Origin: a virus
Strand: one strand, 5' to 3'
Virus record (IMG/VR): IMGVR_UViG_3300017783_000068
Coordinates: 1-39,712 of that record
Length of the DNA stretch: 39,712 nucleotides
Position 1 is the stretch's first letter. Each line of letters starts with the position of its first letter. The notes beneath the pieces are model-generated. The model had not been told where the DNA came from. It did no database searches and worked only from the letters and a program-made list of their open reading frames with translations. This document shows positions 5,617 through 13,589 of the stretch, piece after piece. Position numbers and translations under genes: made by a program.

Positions 5617-6081
5617 ATGGCATCAGGAATATTTAATATTGCGCGGGGCGGCGTAAACGAATTAGTCAATCAAGTAGCTTTAAGTACTCATGAATTGGTT
5701 GTGGTTCTGTTAAAAACAACAGAGTCTGACGATCTTTTACAGGAGCGAACGAATTTAACAGAAATACTGCAGGCGGCAGGAAATACAGAAGCAGACTTCA
5801 CAAATTATTCGCGCAAAGTTTTAACGACGACAGAGATCAACGCGCCGACGATTGATAACGGTGACGACTCCCGATCTTCTTTTGTTCCAGATATTGAATG
5901 GGCTGACGCAGGTGGGTCACTAAATAACAGTTTAGTAAAACTTATTATATGTCAGCGCCCTTTAAATCAAACGTCTACGGTGACATTTGTACCCCTTTGC
6001 CAGTACGATTTTATCGGCACGACGAACGGCACTTTACTGACAGCGAAAGCACCTGTAACTGGATTCTTTAAAGCCTCTTAG
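5617..6081 (+). CDS. Predicted virion structural protein
   Basis: 154 residues, preceded by AAGGGT seven bases before the ATG. From memory it resembles an uncharacterised phage structural family with the core TEADFTNYSRKVLT (about 57-70), then an aspartate-rich turn and a Trp-containing strand (DIEWADAGG), ending in GFFKAS. The predicted structure is mostly beta with no catalytic motif. First gene of the TerL-portal cassette, it is probably a head-surface or fibre-anchoring protein. The role is inferred from position; the family recognition is moderate. Confidence 0.6.
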   Translation: MASGIFNIARGGVNELVNQVALSTHELVVVLLKTTESDDLLQERTNLTEILQAAGNTEADFTNYSRKVLTTTEINAPTIDNGDDSRSSFVPDIEWADAGGSLNNSLVKLIICQRPLNQTSTVTFVPLCQYDFIGTTNGTLLTAKAPVTGFFKAS

Positions 6082-6092
6082 GAGCCTAAAAA

Positions 6093-6842
6093 ATGGCTAA
6101 ATTCTTTTTTGATCCAGCGGCTTATGCTGATGAAACAGATATACGAACGCTTGGCTGGCAAGCGCCGATCGGATTTTTTGCACGGACAGTTAACGGCATT
6201 AGAGTCTGGAAGGAAAATGCGCCAACATTTGTTTTTGGAACGGTTCCGAAAAACGTATATTTTAACGCGTTAGGGCCAATTGGCGCTTTCGATATTTTAC
6301 TAATACAGAATTTTGGGGTGTCTGTTCACGCTGACCCGCAATTAATTAACCCGATGCTTGGCGCAGGTTTATTTAATGAAGACCCACTAAGATCAGAAGC
6401 TTTGCATTTTGAAACTTTTTCTGATGTGCCGACTTATAACCCTAATAGTACCTATCCAGCGTCAAACATTGTTACCAACTCAATTGCAGGCGGGCTAGAT
6501 TCAACGGTCGCAACGGCGGTTCGCGCTTCGTTTGATGGTACAACTTGGCAAGTAAAAGCGTGGCAAGCGCCTGTTGATCAGTTGGAAGCAAACGAATCTT
6601 CAGCGACAATTGTACACACTGAAACGGTAAACGCTGGCTTTTTAGCAGATGGAAAAGTTATGCCATCGTTTACGTTTAGACCAAAAACAAACTTTGGTCT
6701 TTCGCTTTCAAGCATTAGCGTTGGCACCGATGGCGATCTAGCACCTTTTGTTGATGTGCCGCCACCAGTTATTACAGCCCCGACCAATCTAACTGTTTCA
6801 AATATTACGAGCAATAGCGCTGATTTAGACTGGGACGTTTAA
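6093..6842 (+). CDS. Structural/adhesin protein, N-terminal part; FN3 cut by stop
   Basis: 249 residues with a strong AGGAG ribosome site. Residues 1-225 are beta-rich and unrecognised, perhaps the particle-attachment part. After a proline linker (DVPPPVITAP) comes the beginning of a fibronectin type III domain, with strands A and B ending in SADLDWDV. Then TAA (6840-6842) stops the frame. The next codons in the same frame (TTT ATG TCT TTT GGC TAT GAG) give the expected FN3 strand C, so the domain continues past the stop. Either the product is truncated here, or this is the first part of a longer protein made by readthrough. Confidence 0.7.
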   Translation: MAKFFFDPAAYADETDIRTLGWQAPIGFFARTVNGIRVWKENAPTFVFGTVPKNVYFNALGPIGAFDILLIQNFGVSVHADPQLINPMLGAGLFNEDPLRSEALHFETFSDVPTYNPNSTYPASNIVTNSIAGGLDSTVATAVRASFDGTTWQVKAWQAPVDQLEANESSATIVHTETVNAGFLADGKVMPSFTFRPKTNFGLSLSSISVGTDGDLAPFVDVPPPVITAPTNLTVSNITSNSADLDWDV

Positions 6843-6845
6843 TTT

Positions 6846-7793
6846 ATGTCTTTTGGCTATGAGATAGAGCTTAAAAACTTAAACACTGGCGAAACTCAGT
6901 ATATTGCTGGAAGCGAAAGCACTTCAGGGCCGCTCAACGTAACCGAAAGCAATGGCGTTTTGTCTGTCACCACAGACGGAACTTATGATTTCAGTGGTAT
7001 CAAGGCGGCAGTCTGGAAGGACGAGCTAGATTACTCAGAGCCAGCAGGTCAAGCGCCAACGGGTAATTATGCAGACAATAGAGATGTTGTACTTGATGAT
7101 CAAGTGACGCTAGGAAATCGCCCTCGATCTTGGAAAGGGACAGTCAAAGGCAAGCTCGACCCTCTCGTAAACAGGACAGAGTCTATGTATGCTACGTGGT
7201 GGCAGCAGTTTAGTTGTGACTTAGAAGACCCTGCCTTTTTCACAACTAATAATCGTTCCGATAAATTTGCACGAGTCTGGGATGACAGTAACGGCAACGG
7301 TACTCGTGTTTCGTGGACTAAAATGCATCTCACTTACAGTGATGCTAATGATACAGATTGGGAAGGTATGAATTTTGTACCTAATACGTGGACTCGAATG
7401 GAATTGTGGGTTACGCCAACGACGATTAAGGCGTTGCAAGATGGTGTTGTGGCTCATGATATTAGTGATCAAGTTGATCAAGACTTAACGAAAGACCTTT
7501 TCTGGGCGCAGGTTGGTTACGACATGAGCCAAACTGTACATGCTATTCAGTCATTTAATTGGTGGTTGAGTGATCTGTACCAACTAGACACCCCCGCTCG
7601 CGTAGAAATATCTGATTCTCCAACTTGGAATAACGGTCAAATTAAGCGCTACGTTCAAGACGTAATAAGCGCAGATGCAACAACTATTCAGGCGAATTTA
7701 AATCTATCTGACTTGACAGGCAGCACATACGTTTACGTTGTTGACGAGAACAACAATGTTATGAACGAAAACGGCGTGTCAGTAGGAGCGTAG
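6846..7793 (+). CDS. Adhesin middle part: FN3 strand segment plus lectin-like module
   Basis: 315 residues in the same frame as the preceding gene, one codon after its TAA. No good ribosome site precedes ATG 6846. Residues 1-27 (GYEIELKNLNTGETQYIAG) look like FN3 strands C-E that belong to the half-domain upstream. The rest (about 28-315) is a tryptophan-rich beta-sandwich module of concanavalin/LamG style (WTRMELWVTPTTIKALQDG), followed by a small Ig-like end (ARVEISDSPTW ... YVYVVDENNNV). This end type is known from marine bacterial and phage surface proteins. The frame ends with TAG 7791-7793, and open sequence continues in frame to the next ATG at 7812. Confidence 0.65.
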   Translation: MSFGYEIELKNLNTGETQYIAGSESTSGPLNVTESNGVLSVTTDGTYDFSGIKAAVWKDELDYSEPAGQAPTGNYADNRDVVLDDQVTLGNRPRSWKGTVKGKLDPLVNRTESMYATWWQQFSCDLEDPAFFTTNNRSDKFARVWDDSNGNGTRVSWTKMHLTYSDANDTDWEGMNFVPNTWTRMELWVTPTTIKALQDGVVAHDISDQVDQDLTKDLFWAQVGYDMSQTVHAIQSFNWWLSDLYQLDTPARVEISDSPTWNNGQIKRYVQDVISADATTIQANLNLSDLTGSTYVYVVDENNNVMNENGVSVGA

Positions 7794-7811
7794 GGACGAT
7801 GGGATCATAAC

Positions 7812-9635
7812 ATGGCTGTAACTGTACCTTTAGACCAAAGCACTAGCTATGAAGCGCGCGTTCGTCGCACGTATACGGTTAACGGCGTTGTCATGTATTC
7901 GCCGTGGTCAAATATTCAAACTTTTACGTCCTTAGTCAGTACAAATACTGAAATAAACCTATCTACTTTAAACGAAAGCTCAGCAGTTAATGACTTTGTT
8001 TTTGAGGTCGGCATAAACGCGCCAGTGATAACGCTAAATGGCGGCAATGAAGTAGATCATGTGCTCGGGATGCCTTGGGTCGAATTAGGCTTTACAGCTT
8101 CAGACATTGAGGATGGCGACCTGAGCGCAAGCGTCGTTATAACAGGCACAATAAACGAAAACGAAAACAGCTATCAAACGCTAACGTATTCTGTTACAGA
8201 TTCGGACGGAAACACTACTCAGATAGAAAGAATTGTTGCGGTAGCGCCAATTTTAGCGCCTACATCGTTTGATGTGCGTTATAAGACTCAATCTGACCCA
8301 GATTTCACAATCGTTACAGGCGTTATAGATTCTGACTTATCATTAACAGGTTTGGCTACTGATGAGACATATAGCTGGGGCGTAAGAGGCGACAACAGCG
8401 GCGCAAAAAGTGATTGGGTGAACGGCCAAGACTTTTTAGTTTCTTCGACTTTGCCAGTGACAATAAATCTTTCTACACTGCTAGAAACGAGCGAGGTATT
8501 TAGCTTCGTATTTGAAGCTGGCGTCAATATTCCAGTGCTTACGCTTATCGGCGGCAATAACGTCACTCACTCACTTGGCACGCCTTGGGTAGAGTTAGGT
8601 TTTACTGCGATAGATGCCGAGGACGGTGATATAAGCGCAAGCGTTGTAATCACTGGAACGATTGACGAAAACGAAAACAGCTACCAGCTATTAAATTATT
8701 CTGTTACAGATTCTGATGGCAATACAGCAGAGCAAGAGCGGCGCGTTGCAGTCACAGAGTTTTTAAATGCGGCTACGTTCGACGTAGGTTACAAAGAGCA
8801 AGGCGAAACAAGCTACACAGTAATAGAAAGCCTTACTGACTCAGATTATGCGCTGACAGGGCTAACAAATAACGAAACCTATAACTGGCGCGTAAGGTCA
8901 GTAAACGGGAATGTGCGCAGCGATTGGGTTAATGGTCAGGATTTTCTAGCCTTTGAAGACCCACCAATTGAAATAAATTTCAATACTGTTATTGAGAAAA
9001 GTTCAGTCAATGAATTTACTGTTGAAATCGAAGACGGGCCTATAACTGTTTTATTTACGACAGTTCAAGAGTCTTGCCAAGTAGATGAATTTGTTTTTTC
9101 TGTTGTCGATCCTGATAATGTTGTAACGCCAACAGAATTTGAGGTTGAAATAAATAATTTAACGGCAGGGACTAGCCAGCTAATTGCTGCAAGCAGCACA
9201 AGCCTTGCCTTGGCCGGTCTCGACCCTTATCAGCTTTACAGGATACGGGTTCGCGGCGTGTTTACCCTATATTTCAGTGCTTGGACAGAATTTTTAACTT
9301 TTTACACCCGCCCTGTAGTCTCAGGGTACGGCGAAAGCGATTATTTCACAGCGCCGATAGCGTCGGAAACTGTAAGCATTGATGTAAGTGACTTTGATTT
9401 TGATCCAAACGGCGAAGATTTATCAGGGCCGGTTAATAGCAATGTCGCGGGCGTTGATGTTGAAATATTAGGCTTAACGTATCCTGCTGAAATAAATAAC
9501 AATGCGTGGTATCTTGAAAATCCGTTTGAAGGGTTTATGCAGATGTTCCAAGACGATTCGCTAGACCAGCAGATAATATTCAAGGTAACAGATGATAATT
9601 TGACAGAAACGCAAGTTTATGGTTTCAGGAGATGA
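7812..9635 (+). CDS. Multidomain Ig/FN3 adhesin-like virion protein
   Basis: 607 residues in the same frame as the two ORFs before it. It opens with FN3 strands F-G (STSYEARVRRTY, SPWSNIQTFTS), so it starts in mid-domain. Then come two exact-length 170-residue repeats (41-210, 211-380). Each has a linker motif (INLSTLxExS), a DUF5011/HYR-like Ig domain (GxPWVELGFTAxDxEDGD; YSVTDSDGN) and an FN3-like domain ending SDWVNGQDFL. Two further linker motifs follow (387-431), then a third FN3 (440-500) and a unique beta-rich end. The ribosome site is weak (TGGGA). Probable role: an extended fibre or appendage on the virion. It overlaps the next gene's first possible start (ATGA). Confidence 0.7.
   Translation: MAVTVPLDQSTSYEARVRRTYTVNGVVMYSPWSNIQTFTSLVSTNTEINLSTLNESSAVNDFVFEVGINAPVITLNGGNEVDHVLGMPWVELGFTASDIEDGDLSASVVITGTINENENSYQTLTYSVTDSDGNTTQIERIVAVAPILAPTSFDVRYKTQSDPDFTIVTGVIDSDLSLTGLATDETYSWGVRGDNSGAKSDWVNGQDFLVSSTLPVTINLSTLLETSEVFSFVFEAGVNIPVLTLIGGNNVTHSLGTPWVELGFTAIDAEDGDISASVVITGTIDENENSYQLLNYSVTDSDGNTAEQERRVAVTEFLNAATFDVGYKEQGETSYTVIESLTDSDYALTGLTNNETYNWRVRSVNGNVRSDWVNGQDFLAFEDPPIEINFNTVIEKSSVNEFTVEIEDGPITVLFTTVQESCQVDEFVFSVVDPDNVVTPTEFEVEINNLTAGTSQLIAASSTSLALAGLDPYQLYRIRVRGVFTLYFSAWTEFLTFYTRPVVSGYGESDYFTAPIASETVSIDVSDFDFDPNGEDLSGPVNSNVAGVDVEILGLTYPAEINNNAWYLENPFEGFMQMFQDDSLDQQIIFKVTDDNLTETQVYGFRR
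7932..8951 (+). repeat. Two tandem 510-bp coding repeats (Ig + FN3 module)
   Basis: Residues 41-210 and 211-380 of the protein encoded from 7812 align without a gap. PWVELGFTA, DENENSYQ/NENENSYQ, YSVTDSDGN and SDWVNGQDFL recur exactly 170 residues apart. This is a tandem module duplication. The nucleotide sequence has diverged, so it is not recent. Confidence 0.85.
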
Positions 9636-9637
9636 TA

Positions 9638-10255
9638 ATGAGAGCAGTAAGTTACGCGCAACGTCGAGCAGAACAAACAGACAAAACGCTTACAGGCGGT
9701 GATTTAATTGCAGTTGAAATAGGTCAGCGCAGCCATGTAATAACGGTTGACGAACTGAACCAGCTTTTGTCTGGCGCTACTACTTTGCAGGGCAGGCAGG
9801 AAGCGTTTCGAGGTTGTCGCGTTGGTCTAGATTCAGTGGCAAATAATTATTGGGGCAATTTGTTCTCAGTGGAGTGGTCGAAAGTCGATTTTGATTCCGA
9901 CTCAATATACAACGGCTTAGCAGCGACAGCTTTAGTCGCCCCTTCAGATGCGACAAAGGTTAGAGTACAAGGCAACTTTAAAATCGCAGGATTTACTTCG
10001 CCCGACACTATCTATACGACAGTAGAGGTAATTTTAAGAAAAAATGACGAAGAAATAACTTCAGATGTAAAAAAAGGAAAAGGAGGCGACACGGCGGCAG
10101 AGTTAGGCGATGTTTTTTATGTAGACAGCGGGCCGATAGATGTTGCTCCGAATGACATTTTTACCTTTTATTTAAAGCTAAGCAACTTTGGCTCTATTTT
10201 ATTGAATCCAGAGGGTACATGGGGTTCGCTTGAAGTTGTGGAACAGTTACCGTGA
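9638..10255 (+). CDS. Predicted fibre/structural protein, jelly-roll-like
   Basis: AGGAG at 9627-9631 is six bases before ATG 9638, so this start is preferred to the overlapping ATG at 9632. 205 residues. The N-terminal 40 look like a short docking region. The rest has the alternation of a C1q/TNF-like trimeric jelly roll (KVRVQGNFKIAG, TTVEVILRKNDEEI, DSGPIDVAPNDIFTFYLKL), a fold found in many phage fibre tips. No enzyme motif. It lies between the Ig/FN3 protein and the subtilase, with coupled stop/start overlaps on both sides. Role inferred. Confidence 0.5.
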   Translation: MRAVSYAQRRAEQTDKTLTGGDLIAVEIGQRSHVITVDELNQLLSGATTLQGRQEAFRGCRVGLDSVANNYWGNLFSVEWSKVDFDSDSIYNGLAATALVAPSDATKVRVQGNFKIAGFTSPDTIYTTVEVILRKNDEEITSDVKKGKGGDTAAELGDVFYVDSGPIDVAPNDIFTFYLKLSNFGSILLNPEGTWGSLEVVEQLP

Positions 10256-11541
10256 TTATAGTTGTAACCCATAAGGGCCAAGAAAACGCTTTTATAGATC
10301 TATTGTCTAATCTTGATGTCAAATTTGAGCAGCGCAGAACAAAGCATATTTTTTATGTGCATGATATTGACAAAGAAAACCCTATTTTAAGTCACTCATG
10401 CGTAAAAGATTTTCAGGAAAATGTAGAATTTAATCCTGAAGATTTTCTTATGGGTGCGCAGCAGATAGATATTGATAAAAGCCAGTTTGCTAAGTTTATG
10501 CGTATGCAGCCTGTAAGCCCTCCTCTAAAAACATCGCCTTGGCAAATTGCTGATGCAATTAGGCGCGTCAGTCCGTGGACTAACTCAAACAACAGAAAAG
10601 CAAGCAGCACGTTTAAATGTAAACGCACTGGTGAGGGTGTGGATATTTACGTTTTCGACACGGGCATGTCGTGTGATGATGAAGAATTTGAAGATCGAGC
10701 ATTTGACGTGGACGGGCTGCGTTATCCTGAAAAACTAATGACTCGTTGGTGGGGTGGTTTTCATGGATCAATGGTCGCTGCGGGAGCGGCAGGAAAAGTA
10801 CACGGCATCGCTAAAAAAGCGACTTTATGGAACAAGTTAGCGCTGTATTCTGGAGGCCGTACAGCCGCTTTTCTTTTCGAGCAAATGGAAAAAGTCCACG
10901 CCCATATTGACTCAAGAATAAGCCTAAATCGTCCCGCTATAGTCAATATGTCTTTAGGTGGGCCACCTATGCCCCAATTAAAAGCAGAAATGGAAGAAAT
11001 GCTCGATAAAGGCGTTATTTTTGTTGCTGCTGCGGGCAATTTAAGTATCACGCTATCAGATAGCGGATTCGGCGCAGTTACTTTTGAGCCTGCTAGTTAT
11101 GCATTTGATGGATTCATAACAGTCGGTGCAACTAATTTAGAGCGAAATATTGCCTTTTTTAGTAATTATAACCATCCAAGAAGAATGATTTACGCAGGAG
11201 GAGAGGTAGCAAGTGGTAAAACAATGACAAGCTATTTACCAGATGCACCGCTAAAAGATACGTTTATCAGTGGAACTTCATTTGCAAGCCCTTTAGTTGC
11301 TGGGATTCTAGCTTGTATGCTTCAAGGCCATAACCGTCCAACTAACCGAGCAGAAGCAGAAGCGGCTATCCAAGCCCTTTTAAAAAACGCAACAAAAAAC
11401 GTCATTAACCCAAGAGTAAAAGGCCGTCAATTAGGGTATGGCCCAGTTGAAATAGAAATGACAGAAGGCCAAAACTTACTGGCTTACCTAGACCCAAATA
11501 TTGAATTTGAGCTGATCGAAGGGCTGACTAAAAAGGTTTAA
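10252..11541 (+). CDS. Subtilisin-family (S8) serine protease
   Basis: 429 residues starting at GTG 10252, which overlaps the preceding stop (GTGA). The catalytic triad is visible: D136 in VDIYVFDTGM, H171 in GGFHGSMVAAG, and S343 in ISGTSFASPLVAG; the oxyanion asparagine is N263 in VAAAGNLS. Residues 1-100 look like an inhibitor-type propeptide (FIDLLSNLDVKFEQRR). There is no obvious signal peptide, so it is probably active inside the cell or carried in the particle rather than secreted. It sits inside the virion-protein operon, which suggests that it processes neighbouring structural proteins or acts on the host surface. Family certain; target unknown. Confidence 0.92.
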   Translation: MIIVVTHKGQENAFIDLLSNLDVKFEQRRTKHIFYVHDIDKENPILSHSCVKDFQENVEFNPEDFLMGAQQIDIDKSQFAKFMRMQPVSPPLKTSPWQIADAIRRVSPWTNSNNRKASSTFKCKRTGEGVDIYVFDTGMSCDDEEFEDRAFDVDGLRYPEKLMTRWWGGFHGSMVAAGAAGKVHGIAKKATLWNKLALYSGGRTAAFLFEQMEKVHAHIDSRISLNRPAIVNMSLGGPPMPQLKAEMEEMLDKGVIFVAAAGNLSITLSDSGFGAVTFEPASYAFDGFITVGATNLERNIAFFSNYNHPRRMIYAGGEVASGKTMTSYLPDAPLKDTFISGTSFASPLVAGILACMLQGHNRPTNRAEAEAAIQALLKNATKNVINPRVKGRQLGYGPVEIEMTEGQNLLAYLDPNIEFELIEGLTKKV

Positions 11542-11543
11542 TC

Positions 11544-11939
11544 ATGATTAAAGTATCAACGTTAATATTTGATGAAGGCTTGAGTAAGTTTTCAGAAGCT
11601 TTTCAAATCTGTGTCTGTCAAGGCGAGCCGTTAACTGCAAGCGACGTTAACAACACACTAAGCAGCGGTGGCAAGCGTGTAACGCCTTTTAAGACTTTTA
11701 ACGCGGGTGAAATAGCTATAGGTGATGGTCTTGAGTCAGAATCTAGGGCGATTACTATCCCTAACTCACTTTTTGATTCGTCAGTATTAGAAAATGTTTC
11801 GCTCGCTTCTGCTGACTTATATGTTGCTTGCATTGCAGGCGCTGACATACTATTAAAAAGTGATCAAGTGCAAAATCAGCAATTAGTGGTTGGTGCTACG
11901 CTTCAAGTCGATGCTTTTGAATACGGGATCAAGCAATGA
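11544..11939 (+). CDS. Predicted small virion protein (decoration/fibre family)
   Basis: 131 residues of unknown function. Its layout (N-terminal LIFDEGLSKFSEAFQICVCQGEP, then a GDGxxSxSRxITIP turn, V-x-x-x-x-x-A-x-x-Y-V-A, and a closing beta strand) resembles a widespread phage structural family. It also resembles the 122-aa protein at 12894-13262, so the two may be diverged paralogues. It is mostly beta. It follows the subtilase by two bases and overlaps the next start (ATGA). It may be a substrate or partner of the protease; that is inference. Confidence 0.5.
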   Translation: MIKVSTLIFDEGLSKFSEAFQICVCQGEPLTASDVNNTLSSGGKRVTPFKTFNAGEIAIGDGLESESRAITIPNSLFDSSVLENVSLASADLYVACIAGADILLKSDQVQNQQLVVGATLQVDAFEYGIKQ

Positions 11940-12544
11940 CAGAGATTGTTTTAGATACGGTCTACGAAAACAACAATCCTTTTTTGTTGGGCGTTCCTGC
12001 CGTTAATTTAACGACTCTGGCCGAAGCTGAACAGCTAAACCGCATAGAAGCGCATCCTAATATTTACACAATAGACGCTGCTGAAAGCGTCAATGAATTT
12101 GGTTCGTTTACGGGGCTTACGACTATTATCGCAAGCGAACGAGCTAACGATATTTATATTCCGTTAGAAGTTAATCAGATTCAAGACGGTACTTATCCTG
12201 TCACGTTCACGGCCAAAACTGCGAGCGGCTTAACTGTCACTAAAACGGTGACAATGACGGTCGGCACAGAGTTAAACGTTTTTTATGCAAGACAAGATGA
12301 ACAGTCTAGCGTCAATGAGTTTTTATTCTCAGTTGAGTCAAGCGGCACAGCATTAAGTAGTCAGTCTTTAACTTTAAGCACAGCGATTAGCGATAGCGCG
12401 TTGACGCTAAAAACAATTTTAAGTTCTGAGGCCGTTACGCTTCAGAGTTCGCTTAGTTCTTCAGTGCTTGGAGAGGATGAAGGGTTAGTATCTGACGATT
12501 TAGTAAATCAACTAAATCTAACAGCTTCAGATATAACCATTTAA
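11936..12544 (+). CDS. Ser/Leu-repeat structural protein, N-terminal part
   Basis: 202 residues. It has an Ig-like beta region (about 40-112, DGTYPVTFTAKT), then the linker motif LNVFYARQDEQSSVNEFLFSV (113-133; also present in four versions in the 7812-9635 protein), then a low-complexity Ser/Leu/Thr repeat (LTLSTAISDSALTLKTIL, LSSEAVTLQSSLSSS). The repeat is cut by TAA at 12542-12544. The same repeat style goes on in the same frame beyond the stop up to 12883. Either truncated, or extended by readthrough. Likely a fibrous part of the same appendage as the upstream adhesin. Confidence 0.6.
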   Translation: MTEIVLDTVYENNNPFLLGVPAVNLTTLAEAEQLNRIEAHPNIYTIDAAESVNEFGSFTGLTTIIASERANDIYIPLEVNQIQDGTYPVTFTAKTASGLTVTKTVTMTVGTELNVFYARQDEQSSVNEFLFSVESSGTALSSQSLTLSTAISDSALTLKTILSSEAVTLQSSLSSSVLGEDEGLVSDDLVNQLNLTASDITI

Positions 12545-12616
12545 TCAATAGCCGCAAGCGAAAACTTACAGCTAAGCTTATCCGTTAGCGATTCGCTTAT
12601 AAGTGAGTCGCAGCCA

Positions 12617-12883
12617 ATGCTTACAGATTCGCTTAGTGCAGCTTGCCAGCTAACAGAAAGCTTCATAAATCAGAAGCCGCGCGTAAACTCAGATCCTATA
12701 ACAGCAACGATTATTTTAGACAGTAGCGCCATAGGTCGCAGAGTAGAGCTTTATTCTGATAATATCGATCTAAGACTATTACTAAGCGACAACACGCCGC
12801 GTCCGCTAAATGTTCGCGAAGTGGATGCAGATAACATATACTTCAAATCAACAACGCCAGTAATAAAATTTAAAGACTTGTAA
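12617..12883 (+). CDS. C-terminal part of the Ser/Leu-repeat protein
   Basis: 88 residues from the first ATG after the in-frame TAA at 12542, with only a weak ribosome site. In-frame coding sense begins earlier, directly after the TAA (SIAASENLQLSLSVSDSL), and continues the Ser/Leu repeats. The rest (about 30-88) is a compact beta domain (ITATIILDSSAIGRRVELYS) ending at TAA 12881-12883. I regard it as the C-terminal piece of the gene starting at 11936 (948 bases, 316 codons including both stops) rather than an independent gene. Confidence 0.5.
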   Translation: MLTDSLSAACQLTESFINQKPRVNSDPITATIILDSSAIGRRVELYSDNIDLRLLLSDNTPRPLNVREVDADNIYFKSTTPVIKFKDL

Positions 12884-12893
12884 GGGGTTCAAA

Positions 12894-13262
12894 ATGGGCA
12901 AAAAAGTCTCAGATAGCGTATTAGATAACGGGCCTCAATACGTTAAAGATAATGTCACAGCCATGATTCTGACGGATGCAGAACCGTCAAGCCGAGCTGA
13001 TGCAATTGCAAATGCGCTGGTCACTGTGCCAATGTCTAGCACTGACATTACCGTGGGCGATGGCACTCCAAACGGGCGCGGGTTCGTGACTTCTGAAAAG
13101 CTAGATCAAGACGTTACAGCAAGCGGCAATCGGGGCCACACTTCGCTAATATCTGCGGGCGAATTAATGGTGGTTACCGTCGCCAACGTTGTCGAGCCGA
13201 TAAACTCAGGGAACAAGGTTGATGTTCTTTCGTGGAGCATGACCGTTTTAGACCCTGTTTAA
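12894..13262 (+). CDS. Predicted small virion protein
   Basis: 122 residues, good ribosome site (AAGGGG). Unknown function. Contains VGDGTPNGRGFVT and a run of short beta strands (GELMVVTVANVVEPI), similar in layout to the 131-aa protein at 11544-11939, with which it may be homologous. This kind of protein is common near capsid and portal genes. No catalytic motif. A head decoration or fibre-base role is likely from position only. Confidence 0.5.
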   Translation: MGKKVSDSVLDNGPQYVKDNVTAMILTDAEPSSRADAIANALVTVPMSSTDITVGDGTPNGRGFVTSEKLDQDVTASGNRGHTSLISAGELMVVTVANVVEPINSGNKVDVLSWSMTVLDPV

Positions 13263-13274
13263 TAGGTTCTTCAA

Positions 13275-13589
13275 ATGGAATTAATTTTCAACGGTTACAA
13301 CAATACGGCATCTGTGCAGGTTACACGTTATGACCCGCTAACAGAAACGGAAGAGTCTTTCCCGTTTGAAGACGTTACCAGCGTCGAGGCTTATATTGTC
13401 GAGCTTGATCAAACGATCACTACAGGCATAGATAAAAGTCAGGGTGACGGTATTTTGAAGTTTCTATGGGGTAACTTGGGTTTACCTAAAGGCCGCTATT
13501 GTGTGCGATTGATTATTAATGATCCTGTGAACGGCACGCAGATTTTGACGCATGAGTCACAGCGCAAGCTTGGGTTAAGGGTTTTATAG
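13275..13589 (+). CDS. Predicted beta-sandwich virion protein
   Basis: 104 residues, unrecognised. Alternating hydrophobic strands (SVEAYIVELDQTITTG, GRYCVRLIINDP) suggest a small beta-sandwich like those of phage appendage and adaptor proteins. Its stop (TAG) touches the portal ATG directly, so it is co-translated with the head genes. Last member of the cassette between TerL and portal. Role unknown. Confidence 0.5.
   Translation: MELIFNGYNNTASVQVTRYDPLTETEESFPFEDVTSVEAYIVELDQTITTGIDKSQGDGILKFLWGNLGLPKGRYCVRLIINDPVNGTQILTHESQRKLGLRVL

Follow-up and report, generated by a model that had tools for sequence, protein, structure and literature searches.

An FN3 domain divided at a gene break in a viral adhesin locus: a candidate joint between two proteins

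How does one FN3 domain come to lie on both sides of stop codons in a viral adhesin locus, and do its parts belong together? The question is raised by the window analysed here, the whole stretch of 39,712 nucleotides that makes up the IMG/VR virus record IMGVR_UViG_3300017783_000068. A first-pass annotation, made from the sequence alone, had read positions 6093-9635 as one fused translation in which a lectin-like module interrupts a single FN3 domain. This stretch is indeed a single frame, but two in-frame stops, TAA at 6840-6842 and TAG at 7791-7793, cut it into ORF1, ORF2 and ORF3 (Table 1), so that the fused protein had to be abandoned.

FN3 strands across three ORFs

In a search of the whole record, an fn3 profile match (6777-6947; E 3.4e-5, profile positions 2-45) passed straight through the in-frame TAA. 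The FN3 had been proposed to stop at ...QYIAGSESTS (6926) and to resume at 7812. When the segment 6780-6926 was joined to the start of ORF3, it scored 34.0 and 35.2 bits over positions 2-82 of the 84 in Pfam fn3 (PF00041; cut-off 25 bits), whereas the unjoined piece and seven control tails scored 19.6-21.2 bits (the controls include the segment's own continuation, with 20.1 bits in a separate run). This rise from about 20 to 34-35 bits bears out the proposed junction and indicates that the split FN3 is real and not a chance match.

Two details of the first-pass annotation needed extension. Strands F and G had rightly been assigned to ORF3, which supplies strand E as well, and the break at 6926 had been recognised while the earlier one at the TAA, after strand B, was missed. 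The further FN3 that the annotation placed near the C-terminus was borne out as an FN3-like unit at ORF3 residues 441-499. The FN3 of the window is spread over three ORFs, with strands A-B in ORF1, C-C' in ORF2 and E-F-G in ORF3.

Table 1. Features of the adhesin locus in the window
Feature	Position	Strand	Basis and remarks
Small conserved gene, phrog_26662	5617..6081	+	PHROG E 3e-14; precedes gene 1 in L091, L165, L166 and L169
ORF1 (gene 1)	6093..6842	+	249 aa; domain of ~215 residues (motif GTDGDxAP), then FN3 strands A-B
FN3 strands A and B, C-terminus of ORF1	6780..6839	+	fn3 profile; identity comparison
Gene break in the FN3 B-C loop, TAA TTT ATG	6840..6848	+	Same place in L091, L165, L166 and L169
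ORF2	6846..7793	+	315 aa; FN3 strands C-C' and inserted module; ends with TAG
FN3 strands C and C', N-terminus of ORF2	6846..6926	+	fn3 profile; strands 255-262 and 268-274 of the read-through model, modest confidence
Inserted cassette	6927..7817	+	Module, TAG, GGGA, ATGGCT of ORF3; absent from four relatives; atypical codon usage
ORF3 (gene 2)	7812..9635	+	607 aa; FN3 strands E-G, Ig-like domains (PF16403), FN3-like units without recognisable A-B
FN3 strands E, F and G	7818..7931	+	fn3 profile score of joined pieces; family profile
Internal FN3-like unit starting at strand C	8775..8927	+	Profile 31-80; upstream hairpin adds no fn3 score
Internal FN3-like unit starting at strand C	9132..9293	+	Profile 30-80
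Conserved gene 3 of the adhesin block	9632..10255	+	Found in relatives
Subtilase (PF00082) of the adhesin block	10252..11541	+	Pfam; found in relatives

All structure models were single-chain read-throughs. That of the window was poor (mean pLDDT 44); its strands came in the order A-B-C-C', followed by E-F-G after the insert. The insert itself was unfolded, and the alignment held no homologues of it, so the model is silent on its fold. For L165, a related phage described below, the stop was read as Gln and the product folded with its relatives, which gave a mean pLDDT of 74 and mostly about 90 in the FN3 part. Strand B (234-239) and strand C (247-254) flanked the stop residue at 242, and for residues 217-313 the matches among solved FN3 domains reached Z 15.8 (4lsd_F, with an rmsd of 1.5 over 93 residues). 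The read-through product of L165 is accordingly predicted to be a canonical seven-strand FN3 with the break in its B-C loop, a site at which a fold lends itself to division. Foldseek against a viral library returned numerous tail proteins of lectin and FN3 type with low TM-scores.

The gene break in related phages

Single-protein scans of viral contigs with ORF1, ORF2 and ORF3 gave no relatives, and ORF3 had no match in 23 of 80 terminase-related records; relatives by terminase resembled the window in their terminase and portal genes and lacked the adhesin block. An alignment of the upstream phrog_26662 gene led to 75 viral loci, among them the first syntenic relative, L091, which shares the gene order of the window (gene 1, gene 2, a 183-aa gene, the subtilase and a 132-aa gene). 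A search with an ORF1 alignment recovered L091 only. With an alignment of the two subtilases, L165, L166 and L169 were found, each carrying the gene 1-gene 2 pair; in L168, L170 and L171 the subtilase is present and the pair absent. The gene 1 products of the relatives are 22-34% identical to that of the window. Gene 1 and gene 2 of L165, compared with 50,697 phage records, gave weak or Ig-domain matches only.

In the window and all four relatives, gene 1 stops 2-4 codons past the Trp of strand B and gene 2 opens at strand C. In the window, L165, L166 and L169 the start follows the stop after 3 nt and the frame stays the same; in L091 the two codons share bases (TAATG) and gene 2 lies in another frame. 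Four of the five members have TAA as the stop, and L166 has TGA followed by TAG. These tandem stops stand directly before the gene 2 ATG (L166 7750-7758). The break in the B-C loop is the conserved one of the two in the window.

Whole-record fn3 matches spanned the stops in L165 (38.0 bits, one TAA), L169 (31.4 bits, one TAA) and L166 (22.7 bits, TGA and TAG); in L091 such a match cannot span the break because the frame changes. Joined gene 1-gene 2 peptides scored 38.6 bits (L165), 32.0 bits (L169), 23.4 bits (L166) and 20.4 bits (L091), the last two lying below the Pfam cut-off, and all four covered the profile from positions 2-4 to 72-82 (3-80 in L091). The gene 2 pieces alone gave a reported fn3 match in one case of four (L169, 20.6 bits). 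For comparison, 31 further records, hand-chosen from those available, yielded 13 fn3 matches, and none of these contained a stop. We also scanned 14,766 stop-start pairs in 247 loci and obtained ten spanning matches, of which nine belonged to the five phages, counting duplicate loci, and the tenth was a weak chance match; the profile had been trained on the five members themselves, which makes the scan a search and not an independent proof. The profile became shorter on iteration, and the iterations were dropped. A later L165 gene ending ...QWDAS showed no FN3 junction in the profile scan. The family with this break, one of uncultured phages, consists of five members only, the window and the four relatives. 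All five have a stop and a restart inside the domain, and in none is the FN3 one continuous polypeptide.

The gene 1 domain also occurs in single longer ORFs (L119 8564-10282, L111 2997-4463 and L264; motif GTxGDxAP). No fused, unsplit homologue of the pair was seen: the domain is not followed by an FN3 in L119 or L264 (718 residues), and L111 was covered over the match only. In GTDB genomes the gene 1 profile was found in one of 385 from the class of G036, namely L264 with the gene 1 domain only, and in none of 369 from the class of G041, a set with no positive control.

Between the break and the upstream stop there is no in-frame start, and the product of gene 2 must therefore begin at strand C unless recoding occurs. 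TAA is generally a tight stop. Recoding would mean that some ribosomes read through or shift at the break and produce a fused long form beside the short ORF1, as in phage SPP1. It would suit the shared frame of four members, and the addition of an FN3 to a phage protein is known from the SPP1 major tail protein gp17.1, where a ribosomal frameshift adds it (excerpts of PMC8718954). However, the tandem stops of L166 and the frame change of L091 exclude simple readthrough as a family-wide mechanism, the stop is TAA in most members, and no single recoding event would serve the TAA, the TGA-TAG and the frame change found among the five. We consider recoding distinctly unlikely.

The inserted cassette

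The second break of the window lies in a segment between 6926 and 7812 across which the reading frame is maintained, as the first-pass annotation had stated. Its in-frame insertion of 885 bp stands except in size. From the Tyr of strand C to the aromatic residue of strand F there are 34 residues in L091 and L166 (counted by eye), and the window also has 34 when the 'MA' of ORF3 is assigned to the insert. Because the FN3 regains its normal length in this way, we place the insert at about 6927-7817, that is, about 891 bases or 297 codons. So defined, the cassette carries its own stop and restart.

The proposed search for related phages without the segment succeeded: it is absent from L091, L165, L166 and L169, all syntenic, and we regard it for this reason as an insertion in the lineage of the window. 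Among 32 segments it deviated most in codon usage (z -3.06; the next, at -2.36, was not far off), and its G+C content was ordinary. The absence from relatives and the atypical codon usage support a cassette inserted in an FN3 loop of a phage adhesin, the loop being C'-E. The FN3 of the relatives is free of the insert, yet divided between two genes, so that the ancestral state is not one fused protein. An ORF2 that folds alone, together with relatives in which no FN3 runs without the insert, had been named as the opposite outcome; the relatives do have such an FN3, and ORF2 was not shown to fold alone.

The description of the insert as concanavalin-like was not confirmed, as no match turned up in Pfam, PHROGs, NCBIfam or PDB sequences or by tblastn, and the model left it unfolded. 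No relatives of the insert were found in viral contigs, genome contigs or phages, where two Listeria phage records at E 2 were the only matches, or by phmmer among 7,970 ORFs of the fetched loci (best E 0.03). We rejected an intein, given the TAG stop inside the insert and a Pfam result for ORF2 that held no intein family. An intron was likewise rejected: no Rfam family reached its gathering score in the window, and the one sub-threshold match, to tmRNA, lay elsewhere.

A receptor-range switch, as suggested in the first-pass annotation, would accord with a tail-like adhesin locus and with an insertion that relatives lack. With no lectin identity found and no alternative cassette at the site in the four relatives, the suggestion is left unsupported, and we think it highly improbable. 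The three products of the window, compared with two in the relatives, and the unusual codon usage of the insert could also point to a decaying or misassembled copy, that is, a gene with a nonsense mutation and an insertion. This seems very unlikely to us, since the stop recurs in four other contigs, the ORFs are all long and intact, and the frame is kept.

A possible joint between two adhesins

The part of gene 1 that encodes strands A-B showed a mean identity of 41.8%, compared with 26.9% in the rest of the gene, and was the more conserved in eight of ten pairs; both exceptions involve L169. For the first unit of gene 2 the values were 38.8% and 27.8% in the rest of the gene (higher in nine of ten pairs), with pairs that include the window counted over strands E-G only. 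The ten pairs come from five members and are not independent. Each part thus lies above the rest of its protein, indicating that both sides of the stop are kept, and the two products appear to carry complementary incomplete FN3 folds.

We propose that the locus encodes two virion adhesin proteins, produced by coupled genes and joined by a naturally split FN3, a reading for which we see the chances as about even. Gene 1 ends with strands A-B and gene 2 starts with C-C'-E-F-G. The two proteins would be made one after the other by coupled translation, as is suggested by the stop and start within 3 nt in the B-C loop, and the two FN3 parts would then assemble into one beta-sandwich that joins the proteins non-covalently, in the manner of strand complementation. 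In the lineage of the window, the cassette of ~297 codons in the C'-E loop has distributed the domain over three products (A-B, C-C' and E-F-G), each break lying in a loop; in this three-piece form the joint may have been damaged. Throughout the family the stop and the start are no more than about 10 nt apart, with a 3-nt gap in four members and an overlap in one. SD-like pairing with the 16S tail before gene 2 was weak, above that of the median site yet equalled at 10-33% of the background sites; such weakness is compatible with termination followed by renewed initiation but does not demonstrate coupling.

The same arrangement could arise from two separate adhesins with ordinary translational coupling, whose A-B tail and C-G head are conserved for other reasons (for example, an autonomous C-G unit) and do not meet. 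A stop and start within 3 nt are typical of coupled genes (PMC3711429, in part), and the internal FN3-like units of gene 2 point the same way: of their eight Pfam matches over the window and the four relatives, seven start between profile positions 25 and 32, with a similar picture from the family profile. The hairpins before these units were rejected as candidate A-B strands, as they add no fn3 score. Since units of this kind start at strand C without recognisable A-B, the C-G unit may be self-sufficient or have other partners. Against separate proteins, the A-B tail has an FN3 sequence with the core Trp and is better conserved than the rest of gene 1; moreover, nothing in this explanation would make the tail end exactly where gene 2 starts, and the five junctions keep complementary halves. 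We regard separate adhesins as somewhat unlikely.

For the split-FN3 joint, the internal units cut two ways. Either they fold in another way, which would weaken the case for the joint, or they are further sockets for the A-B plug of gene 1. Joining the A-B part of gene 1 to internal units gave 32.2 and 39.2 bits, which shows that profile scores add and is no evidence of docking. An extended form of the proposal, which we consider fairly unlikely, casts the product of gene 1 as an exchangeable lectin-like head, held by its C-terminal A-B hairpin in FN3 sockets of a stalk that gene 2 encodes, and the insert of the window as a second head on the same joint. Besides the socket at its N-terminus, the stalk would then carry two or three more units without A-B, so that a single stalk could take up several heads, or those of related phages, with no covalent fusion. 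In the window, the FN3-like units of ORF3 that begin at strand C without A-B, as in gene 2 of the relatives, lie within 8265-9308.

In chaperone-usher pili, subunits are joined by donor-strand complementation, in which an Ig-type sandwich is formed from strands of two polypeptides and links adhesive subunits. The proposed joint would likewise form an Ig-type sandwich from two polypeptides between adhesive subunits. In contrast to the pili, two C-terminal strands (A-B) would here complete an FN3 whose other strands open the product of the next gene. As with SPP1 gp17.1, judging from excerpts of PMC8718954, a phage structural protein has an FN3 that depends on events at the end of the upstream frame, whereas here the stop and the start fall within a single FN3 and no one recoding event would account for all members. 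The conserved stop and start within 10 nt resemble the coupled gene pairs described in parts of PMC3711429, and differ from those in that a single domain spans the pair. In the open-licence literature searched, we found no account of two phage genes that share an FN3. If a gene boundary does split an FN3 in nature, the parts would make a protein fastener that needs no design, and phages could use it to join or exchange adhesin parts without gene fusion. Domains that cross stop codons stay hidden in gene-by-gene annotation, which calls for caution.

The adhesin and subtilase block of the window (5617-12544, or about 8 kb when taken as 5617-13589) lies between terminase and portal, two genes that adjoin in L028, a relative by terminase. 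The PHROG and Pfam matches found in the block, to tail protein, Ig-like, fn3 and subtilase families, would suit a tail adhesin accompanied by a protease. The subtilase is kept downstream of the adhesin genes in L165, L166 and L168-L171, including loci without the split pair. A similar subtilase follows tail genes in the cultured Xanthomonas phage Mallos, where no such pair was seen. At the other end of the block, the phrog_26662 gene has distant homologues in Streptomyces and Pseudanabaena phages. The Streptomyces phages Galactica and Spocter have this same gene upstream of a large adhesin-like minor tail gene; unlike the split pair, this is one large gene, and no FN3 was seen at a gene junction. 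The phrog_26662 family precedes large tail or unnamed genes in the unrelated phages Galactica, Spocter and Pam4.
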